Part shown: positions 4,801-8,065 of the stretch, piece after piece
Layout: each line of letters begins with the position of its first letter
Position numbering within the stretch: position 1 is the stretch's first letter
Assembly: GCA_022385755.1 (NCBI GenBank)
Contig: MU278354.1
Location: 310,001 to 374,000 of the forward strand
Reading direction: 5' to 3'
DNA: 64,000 nucleotides
Origin: Trametopsis cervina
Lineage: Eukaryota > Basidiomycota > Agaricomycetes > Polyporales > Irpicaceae
Made by a program: the position numbers and the translations under genes
The notes under the pieces: model-generated
Database searches by the model: none
Told to the model about the DNA's origin: nothing
Seen by the model: only the letters and a program-made list of their open reading frames with translations

Positions 4801-6411
4801 TTGTTAGGTGGTCAACTGACGTTCATTCCGCTCAAGATGGCCCTCTCCACTTGTAGTCCCAGGATAGGGTCGACCGAACCACCATGGGGACTGAGCTTAA
4901 GCCAGAGAACCTTGCGTGGAAAAAAAACAAAACAATGGCACGACCGTATCAACCTATCAACGCGCTGGGCTGGCGGCACGACCAAATCGGAAGCTAAACT
5001 AGCTGCGGAACGTCTCGAAAACCACACCGCGGCGGTTGCCTACGACAGGACGGACGCGCCCATCCGGGTAAGCCTGCGGGCAGATTAAGCGCAACTTTGG
5101 CGCAAGTCGTGCCTCCCGTCGCCCTGAAAACGTGGCGCGGCAATCTGGATCTTTTGTCTATATCCTCCAAACGGATTGCGCCCCCGCACCGCGACTGGAC
5201 GACATCAGGCGACGTCGCTACGAGTTATGTAAACTCGTAGGGTACCGTATGCGCGTAAGGTATGCGGCGCGTTTTATCGTAGCCGCTACAGTTGACTAGA
5301 ACCCCGATCAGAGGACCCGGATTGCCACCACGCCCAACTGAGCCGCTCCCTGCGGCGTCGATTGATGTCAAGCGTTTGCGTTTGCACCCGAAGGAGAAAC
5401 AGATCTGACAGTGTGTTGGGTGGCCGACAGCACGTATGTAAGGGAGCTCGGGCTCCGTGCATGTTTTTGTTTTCCCCCCCTTGCTCTTGCTTTCCTGCTC
5501 CCCGACGGACGCCCAGTCAAGCCGCTACTCGATATCCCGCTCAAGCCAGCGCATTTCGTCCGAGAACATATTATTGTACGACAGATCCATACTTCTACAG
5601 GATGAAAGCGGAAAACAATAAACAACGGCGAGCGCAGCGACAAAACAAGGACTCTGCGTGGCGTAATAAACAGGTAACTTTTGTGGCGGCGAAGACAAGG
5701 GCCAGCGAATACTGATAATTATGCAACGGCATATACCACATGGAGGGGAGGGGGTGGGGGATTTGGGAGGGGATAAATATGCGGTAAGAAGGGCGATGGT
5801 ACAACATAGCGGGGTATGATCAGCTTCGTAAGAACAGGGCAGGAGACGTCGATGAGATGGACGTTCTCGGACCCGGGCGAATTTGGGTTCGTTGGAACAC
5901 CTAACGCCGAGTAAGGAGGCCGTAAATCTTGATGAGCAGGAGTGCAGAGGTGTAGCACAGAGATTGGCCTGCCAGATTTGGTCTGATTCAGAGCATGACC
6001 TCACGGATCTGAGGGAATAGCGGTAAGCATTGTAGATCGGTTACGCTGTTGTAGAACACCATCGGATAATAGACTTACATTCCGACTAATGATCGTACTA
6101 CGATCGAGGACCATAACCCATTCGGTTAGGAAGTAAACATTGAATTGATGGCAGGATCGGGTGGGGGTTCGCGTCAAAGAGAGGGAAGAAAGGCACATGA
6201 GTTTGCATGAACATCATTACCAAGGTCCAGAAGAGTGGGATGCGCAAAAACAATTACACGAAGAATATTTCGATAGAGTGCAAAAAAATCAGACGGCGAA
6301 TGAAAAATGAAAGACGACGCAACGAATCATATAGATGTAATAATGTACGACCAAAATTGCTGCATGGGCATGGCTGTGGCGGCCTTCATACGCGCACGCC
6401 ACATGATAAAG
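1870..6411. other. Stretch without recognisable genes
   Basis: Between the D-lactate dehydrogenase and the G-alpha stop codon I recognise no protein family on either strand. Open frames of 100-170 codons exist (for example minus strand 4207-4716 and 5525-6004) but show no familiar motif, no consistent splice structure and no codon pattern like the neighbouring genes. The part next to 6411 probably holds the 3' untranslated region of G-alpha. A G-rich block lies at 5742-5773 and is listed separately. Confidence 0.5.
5742..5773 (+). repeat. Guanine-run tract, potential G-quadruplex
   Basis: Five runs of three to five guanines follow one another within about 32 bases, separated by loops of one base or ATTT. 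This fits the G3+N1-7 pattern for an intramolecular four-stranded structure on the plus strand. It lies about 640 bases downstream of the G-alpha stop codon. Whether it folds or acts is unknown. Confidence 0.6.
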
Positions 6412-8065
6412 TTATATCAAGGCGGCGTTCTCAAGACTTTGACGAAGGACAATGCTGAGGATTGACGCGATAAGCGCGTGTTGTTGAGCGACGGGTGTTG
6501 CAAGACGCAAAACGAAGGGGATAGAGGGACAAGAAATGAAGGACTCACTCTGCAAGCAATAAGTCAGCAACGTCGCATGTGCATAGTTCAGTAGGCACGT
6601 ACCTTCAACTGCAGCCATGACTACGCGAAGCATGGCAGTATCTGTCGCCGTAGTGGTGCTTGACGGGCGAAAATGTGTCAGTACACCGTTCGGACTGTAA
6701 CCCGCAGGGAAATGCGGAACATCCTGAGATGGGTGTAAAGACGTACTGGATGTATATCTCGCGCTCCTTCTGGTTAGCCTTCTGGGCCAGCCTCGCAAAC
6801 CGTTTTCTGAAGTAATCACGGCCGGCGCGAGCATCAGCCGGCTCGCCATCAAAGTCCTTTCACATCACTCAGTACTGAGGCGCTAAAGCACAACGTGCTC
6901 GCTGACAACTCACGGGGAAGAAGTTCTTGATGTCTGAATGCTCAATCTTCTTCTGGAAGAGATCATCTTTGTTGAGGAACAAAATCTATTGACGAACAGT
7001 CAGAGTGAGTTGCAGCGGTGAAACAGCACGGCGTGACACGGACGATTGATGTTTGCTTGAACCATTGCGAGTGACATATTGAATCCCATATGGTCATGGC
7101 ATCTTGCATTTGGTTCTGCAATATTCTCACGTCGGTCAGCTGGCCAAGACCGAAAGTACAACCGAGCACTTACCGCGTCCTTGTCTTCAATCAGACACTG
7201 ATCGTACCCGCTCAAGCTGACCAAGAACAGAATACTCGTCACGTCCTGGAAACAATGTATCCACATCCGACGCTCGCTCTTCTGCCCGCCGACGTCAACC
7301 ATCAGCATCTCATGTTCGCGCAGGTGAAATACGGTCTCGGTGATTCCTATTGTCCGCGCGCGAGTATGAACGATGTCCTGCTCGATGGGGACGTATCCGG
7401 GGTCGAATAGTCGGTCCAGCTCCCCAAAGAAGTAGCTTAAGCTGCGAATATATGCGTTAGAGCGAGCAACATATGAACTGCGGAATATGACATACTTGTC
7501 CGGGAGTGCGGCTTCATTGGCTCTCTTCCAGCACTTCTGTAGATTCTCATCTTCCCAGAGCCGCCGTAGAGGCTCAAGATAATCCTCCGGGAAGGGTTGA
7601 CCATCTCTGATGTCCTGCGCGTCCTCGATCATGGGAACGTATTGCTGGTTATCCTCGGATACGTCGAGGTCCATGTCCACCATAGCATCCAGCACGTATT
7701 TAAGACCGTGCGTGAGATTGTTGAACACGAGCTGACGGTACGACTCGACTTCCTGCGGCGAGAAGGGCACTTTGTGGATGAGCCTCATCTGCTTCAGTAT
7801 CGTCGATTTCCCTGAATCACCAGACCCAAGTAGGAGGACCTGTCGTCATATGTGAGCGTGCGTCAAGACATAGACATGCTATGTTTCGTACCTTGACTTG
7901 GTGGGACATCTTCACCTTTGCCTACGTCGGGGGACATAGTCAGGACATAGAGCGCACCACTATTACGCAAGTACTCACCTCCTTCAGAGCCCGCTCTGCC
8001 TCTCGATGTTTCCTTTTGTCCTCCTCGGACACCTCGATGTGCCCAGATGACATACACGCGCCCAT
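6412..8065 (-). CDS. Heterotrimeric G-protein alpha subunit
   Basis: This is a GTP-binding alpha subunit that relays signals from seven-transmembrane receptors at the plasma membrane. My nine-exon model (8065-7979, 7921-7892, 7839-7174, 7115-7044, 6985-6914, 6856-6747, 6658-6603, 6549, 6454-6412) gives 378 residues, slightly long for the family. The N-terminus MGACMS has the Gly-2 myristoylation context and a nearby Cys for palmitoylation. The motifs are G1 GSGDSGKST, switch I RARTIGITET with the catalytic Arg, G3 DVGGQKSERR with the catalytic Gln, G4 NKDDLF, and G5 TTATDT where TCATDT is usual. The C-terminus reads LRQSLENAALI and has no Cys four residues from the end. Keeping that terminus in frame requires a one-base exon at 6549. 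Fungi of this group usually carry several G-alpha paralogues, and I cannot say which one this is. Confidence 0.93.
6549..6549 (-). other. Proposed one-nucleotide exon of the G-alpha gene
   Basis: On the minus strand the sequence reads TTGCTTGCAG, then A, then GTGAGTCC. A strong 3' splice site is thus separated by one base from a strong 5' splice site. The preceding exon ends GAA G (phase 1) and the last exon starts C ATT GTC. Inserting the single A makes GAC (Asp) and continues in frame into the conserved terminal helix. Direct joining without it gives an unrelated tail that stops after 12 codons. The flanking introns would be 53 nt (6602-6550) and 94 nt (6548-6455). Confidence 0.7.

Follow-up and report, generated by a model that had tools for sequence, protein, structure and literature searches.

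The window, which is the whole analysed stretch of 64,000 nt from Trametopsis cervina (contig positions 310001–374000), contains a complete gene for a G-protein alpha subunit (G-alpha) on the minus strand, extending from 8065 to 5988. In a spliced model, eight ordinary exons lie at 8065–6603 and are separated by seven introns of 52–88 nt: exon 1 with the ATG at 8065 (7979–8065), exon 2 (7892–7921), exon 3 containing GSGDSGKS (7496–7839), exon 4 containing DVGGQ (7174–7441), exon 5 (7044–7115), exon 6 containing FLNKDD (6914–6985), exon 7 (6747–6856) and exon 8 (6603–6658), all on the minus strand. Exon 8 encodes TTTATDT...AAVE, the first half of helix alpha-5, and its letters end in GTT GAA G. 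Residues 1–328 of the predicted protein, beginning with exon 1, are identical to those of an annotated T. cervina protein (P0001). The G-alpha motifs are present as GSGDSGKS (the P-loop), DVGGQ, NKDD (NKxD) and TATDT (TxAT). With either of the two C-terminal endings described below, the spliced product matches the profile of the G-protein alpha subunit (PF00503) over positions 1–333 of 333, with 386.5 bits for tail A and 387.4 bits for tail B (cut-off, 48.8 bits).

Downstream of exon 8, the minus strand carries in order a donor GTACGT from 6602, TTGCAG ending at 6550, a single A at 6549, GTGAGT from 6548 and CCTCAG ending at 6455. These sites would delimit a 53-nt intron (6550–6602; GTACGT...CTGAC...TTGCAG), a one-nucleotide exon (exon 9; 6549) and a 94-nt intron (6455–6548; GTGAGT...CCTCAG) before a last exon (exon 10; 6412–6454), whose TAA ends at 6412 and which encodes tail A, (GA)C-IVLRQSLENAALI-stop. 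The first-pass annotation had already proposed a one-nucleotide exon at this site, and its letters and coordinates (GTT GAA G at 6603, A at 6549 and C ATT GTC from 6454) are correct; its exon 7 is exon 8 in the present numbering. As it had also claimed, G from exon 8, A6549 and C from the last exon make an Asp codon with A as the middle base, and the frame then continues to a G-alpha end, so that the protein ends in VEDIVLRQSLENAALI. When A is left out, the frame shifts, and 12 unrelated codons (ALSFVKVLRTPP) are followed by TGA. The Asp completed by A6549 has an aligned Asp counterpart in the Gt/Gi1 chimera 6oya. In CAG-A-GTGAGT the base is preceded by AG and followed by GT, and the flanking introns of 53 and 94 nt are of workable size. 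The further claim that the frame can be restored in no other way has to be withdrawn: among 149 single-intron GT/GC-AG joins of at least 20 nt, the ENAALI end (six residues) is preserved by 40, of which 15 use GT donors, and full retention is also open. None of these 149 joins, however, combines AAVED with the ENAALI end, and a one-nucleotide exon is the sole reading found that would give both the Asp and the conserved helix length, which supports the original proposal.

A second ending, absent from the first-pass annotation, was located downstream of the tail A stop by scanning the window for an ML-type tail, one of two kinds of tail found in homologues (see below). Tail B consists of a first part (6079–6097), (GA)T-TIISRN, and a last part (5988–6008), IREVML-stop (TGA), separated by a 70-nt intron (6009–6078; GTAAGT...CCCTCAG); on the minus strand it reads GATCGTAG|T ACG ATC ATT AGT CGG AAT|GTAAGT...CCCTCAG|ATC CGT GAG GTC ATG CTC TGA. 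Scored as a spliced motif with a stop codon at its end, tail B reaches 36.2, compared with −2.3 for the next best of 752 window candidates and 1.2 for the best ML-type motif in ten block-shuffled windows, of which one strand each was scanned. Tail B starts 314 bases past the end of the tail A stop codon and one base ahead of a codon, and the missing GA corresponds to the G of exon 8 and A6549. Splicing from GTGAGT to tail B would require an alternative intron of 451 nt that bypasses tail A (6098–6548; GTGAGT...CCTAAC...GATCGTAG), and the protein would then end in TIISRNIREVML. The gene thus has two alternative sets of 3′ exons, both intact and in the same phase; tail A has 13 residues after the Asp and tail B has 12, one fewer. 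Both tails need the same A6549, and each is in frame only when this base is included.

The strength of these sites was compared with that of 85 reference introns, i.e., 78 introns from alignments of paralogues in the same genome (from codon 150 on, with a maximum length of 135 nt) and the seven other introns of the G-alpha gene, so that the reference partly derives from spliced alignments of diverged paralogues made in the same analysis. The donor and acceptor of the 53-nt intron score at least as high as 82 and 71 of the 85 reference sites, respectively, and the donor GTGAGT after A6549 at least as high as 27. The acceptor of tail B is ordinary (at least equal to 49 of 85), as are the sites of the intron inside tail B (donor, 74; acceptor, 53). 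The acceptor of tail A equals or exceeds only three of the 85 reference acceptors; it is weak and counts against the reading as a one-nucleotide exon. At 451 nt, the intron leading to tail B is also long; a length of 147 nt or more occurs in seven of 86 paralogue introns. Of the 422 AG-N-GT sites that the window contains on its two strands, only A6549 itself reaches its combined acceptor and donor score, corresponding to an expected rate of about 0.0005 in the allowed part of the gap, a figure derived from that single site. The arrangement is more than chance.

Homologues point to the same Asp. Three protein searches, from which the best 120 of 2626, 196 and 7983 matches were taken, provided 182 distinct proteins, which were classed by source, entered by hand, as transcript-like (81 proteins; jgi, lgn and ena) or annotated (101 proteins; ncbi, uniref and nr). 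The transcript-like proteins lie on contigs no longer than 3167 bases, and they are probably products of spliced transcripts; some of these contigs are too short for introns, such as that of P0048 (357 aa on 1213 bases). VED is present in all 81 transcript-like homologues listed; the tail is of the AALI type in 47 of them and of the ML type in 34. The two kinds of tail among the listed homologues have the approximate forms D-[IM][IV]LRxxLxxAALI and D-[TAS][IV][IV]SKNIRxIML. Also, a long insert (TAYTAVYPEDDPEGRAGY... in P0128) occurs in the transcript-like proteins P0128 and P0148 and is missing from the other 15 rows of their alignment. G-alpha DNA of relatives was sought in viral and genome contig collections, with no match.

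Two of the annotated proteins (P0162 and P0172) stop short of the junction. In the other 99 listed models, the residue after VE is G in 55, A in five, V in four and D in four, and 31 end in VEE*. G is the outcome of reading on into GT, and VEE* is the product expected from splicing of the first intron only, when A precedes GTRA (GTGA or GTAA). P0001 of T. cervina ends in VEE*, as the window sequence predicts, and models with this ending are found among the listed proteins of polypores, Russula, Coprinopsis cinerea, Agaricus bisporus and three Tulasnella. Three of the five Ala models decode one frame over as an AALI tail: Daedalea P0031 (DIVLRQSLQTAAL; score 38.4), Heterobasidion P0045 (DIVLRQNLEV; 32.9) and Somion P0138 (DIVLRQNLESAALL; 40.7), compared with maxima of 34.9, 22.3 and 19.6, respectively, in sets of 2000 random peptides matched for length. 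This is the frame slip expected from omission of the A. For the other two Ala models (P0091 and P0160) and all four Val models, neither tail was recovered one frame over. In addition, among the 95 annotated models that lack Asp, 27 reach a recognisable tail through another join, which counts against the one-nucleotide exon. Asp is followed by an ML-like tail with no frame problem in annotated models of Mycena (P0132, P0135 and P0139), in which the one-base exon may be absent, or may have been lost or absorbed, and by a different ending in Serpula P0084. Dacryopinax, which belongs to the Dacrymycetes, has an AALI-type tail with G where Asp is expected, hinting at an older origin of the arrangement.

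The frame could be kept instead by a single 144-nt intron from a donor GTGCCT at 6598 to the acceptor at 6455, giving VE-Gly-Thr-IVLRQ with no one-nucleotide exon. This join is open and is the one otherwise nearest to keeping the helix length, and annotated models of other species similarly have two residues in place of Asp (VEGS, VEGN, VEGA and VEGY). However, its donor scores 3.05 (at least equal to five of the 85 reference donors), whereas GTACGT at 6602, four bases earlier, scores 10.45, and the product would have an alpha-5 helix longer by one residue and lose the Asp of all 81 listed transcript-like homologues, which makes this join very unlikely. The same homologues, with VED and a tail of usual length, bear on retention of the 148 nt from 6602 to 6455 (both introns and the A), which contain no in-frame stop and are part of an open reading frame at 6412–6852 on the minus strand. 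Retention would split helix alpha-5 with a 49-residue insert; as the explanation of the locus it has very little probability, and the retained form would be at most a minor isoform. The frame would equally be repaired by a one-base change. In this reading, an assembly error has removed a base from either exon 8 or the last exon, which are separated by a single ordinary intron of approximately 147 nt. In a last exon, such an error would have had to occur twice, as two separate endings require the same extra base, and this is a strong argument against a sequencing error there. Moreover, the T. cervina model ends in VEE* as predicted, as do 31 of the 99 listed annotated models, from many genera, and the flanking introns are of usual length, with sites that are ordinary to good except for the weak tail A acceptor. 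An assembly error is considered extremely improbable.

A different question is whether the one-nucleotide exon is real but each species uses only one tail, the other being a relic or part of another transcript. The 314 bases between the two tails would be compatible with this, as would some lineage structure in the kind of tail. On a tree of 72 of 76 transcript-like proteins, those longer than 330 aa, the kind of tail changes 19 times, compared with a shuffled mean of 24.4 (four of 300 shuffles as low). When the five most distant rows, all with ML tails, are left out, 18 changes are counted on 67 rows, compared with a shuffled mean of 21.8 (20 of 300 as low). Against this stand differing tails on near-identical bodies. 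Suillus P0103 (AALI; annotated, without Asp) and the transcript-like P0124 (ML) have bodies that are 99.1% identical, and the transcript-like P0128 (ML) and P0148 (AALI), which have an unusual insert in common, have bodies that are 96.4% identical; the two members of each pair may come from different strains. The nearest neighbour has the other kind of tail for 36 of the 95 proteins with a readable tail (from 157 proteins). In T. cervina, both tails are intact and in the same phase, and the sites of tail B are ordinary to good. Overall, the kind of tail is nearly, though not entirely, scattered, a pattern expected if isoforms were sampled from a gene with both tails, with some lineage bias or loss. 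The partial structure on the tree suggests that some lineages may favour one tail or have lost the other, and use of only one tail in each species is considered unlikely.

About a dozen further G-alpha-like loci (L032–L044), most of them strongly diverged, are present in the same genome (29.4 Mb assembly). Ten of 14 own-genome stretches could be aligned to the C-terminus of the query, with Asp in six and Glu in four at the position of the Asp, which defines what is expected of the protein at this place; the distance from that residue to the query end, the limit of this comparison, is unchanged. These ten reach the C-terminus without needing a one-nucleotide exon, in alignments by a spliced aligner that has no means of modelling two introns within one codon and so could not display such an exon in paralogues. 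With the same aligner, no intron was found at the Asp codon among the aligned own-genome stretches; in five loci (L036, L040, L041, L042 and L043), query codon 345, which lies two codons before the Asp, is interrupted by a phase-1 intron. L045 looks like an Arf rather than a G-alpha.

Taken together, A6549 is very probably a real spliceosomal one-nucleotide exon that can be joined to tail A or tail B, so that the gene would encode two G-alpha proteins. In this arrangement, the Asp in the middle of helix alpha-5 would be composed of G from exon 8, A from the one-nucleotide exon and C or T from the next exon. The donor GTGAGT after the A would be joined either to tail A (6454–6412) or to tail B (6097–6079 and 6008–5988). 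The sequence, the frame requirement of both tails, the splice-site scores and the protein evidence are direct observations, and from these we infer splicing and its order, production of both tails in T. cervina and a change in receptor choice. The likely route is intron definition with removal of the introns in sequence: the introns of 53 and 94 nt on the path to tail A are of ordinary size, which is compatible with intron definition, and simultaneous use of a single base by two spliceosomes is improbable, which makes stepwise removal likely. As exon 8 ends in AAG and the 53-nt intron in CAG, the donor context AGA|GTGAGT would be unchanged by removal of the first intron. The combination of a weak tail A acceptor and an ordinary tail B acceptor would allow tail A to be skipped.

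Helix alpha-5 of G-alpha contacts receptors. The tails would form the second half of this helix, and the two predicted products would differ only in their last 12–13 residues, the part expected to contact receptors, suggesting that the tails might differ in receptor choice. In a broader form, the arrangement would be ancient, extending from Tulasnella to polypores and perhaps to Dacryopinax; an obligatory one-nucleotide exon would join two interchangeable receptor-contact helices, the choice of acceptor would switch receptors, and annotation would have missed this almost everywhere. The chances of this broader proposal seem to us about even. Asp is missing in 95 of the 99 listed annotated models, 68 of which also lack a recognisable receptor-contact tail; if the reading is true, nearly all genome models listed mis-annotate a core signalling protein of mushroom-forming fungi. 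The gene would also offer a conserved natural substrate for the study of how the spliceosome handles a one-base exon. Mushroom-forming fungi have many receptors, and a splicing switch for receptor coupling would be suggested in these fungi.

The introns of placozoan mitochondrial cox1 are not spliceosomal. Like the gene described here, placozoan cox1 has an exon of a single base, but it is a mitochondrial gene with trans-spliced introns (PMC5436844). Spliceosomal one-nucleotide exons are known from plants: for the APC11 microexon, intron definition and stepwise splicing were proposed by the authors of the Arabidopsis study (PMC4674806), and VPS55 contains a further one (PMC8831610). As described in these reports, the plant microexons resemble A6549 in having been omitted from annotations, and they are widely conserved in plants; unlike A6549, they were confirmed by RT-PCR and constructs, and their alternatives are inclusion or omission of the microexon, in contrast to two last exons here (PMC4674806; PMC8831610). 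The statement in the first-pass annotation that one such exon had been reported, in Arabidopsis, is therefore out of date, given VPS55 and Fusarium CYP621A. According to its authors, the exon in CYP621A is the second such exon to be reported and the first from a fungal gene (PMC12940212). By their account, it is similar to the present case in that a fungal nuclear gene has a one-nucleotide exon within one codon, with short introns on either side, which was missed by annotation and revealed by a frame problem in a conserved motif; CYP621A differs in encoding a P450, in that its exon is the central base of a Gly codon, in having one ending and in having SRA reads as proof (PMC12940212).

In the open-licence literature, part of whose results were covered by first matches only, no paper was found on a one-nucleotide exon or alternative C-termini in Agaricomycete G-alpha. 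Alternative endings of G-alpha have a precedent in vertebrate GNAO (G-alpha-o), in which mutually exclusive final exons alter the receptor-coupling C-terminus (PMC5896119). As in T. cervina, one G-alpha gene has alternative 3′ exons for the receptor-coupling C-terminal region; unlike in T. cervina, the gene is vertebrate, its last two exons are swapped and the passage concerned mentions no one-nucleotide exon (PMC5896119). One-nucleotide exons and swapped G-alpha C-termini are each known, and their combination is new as far as the literature was searched.
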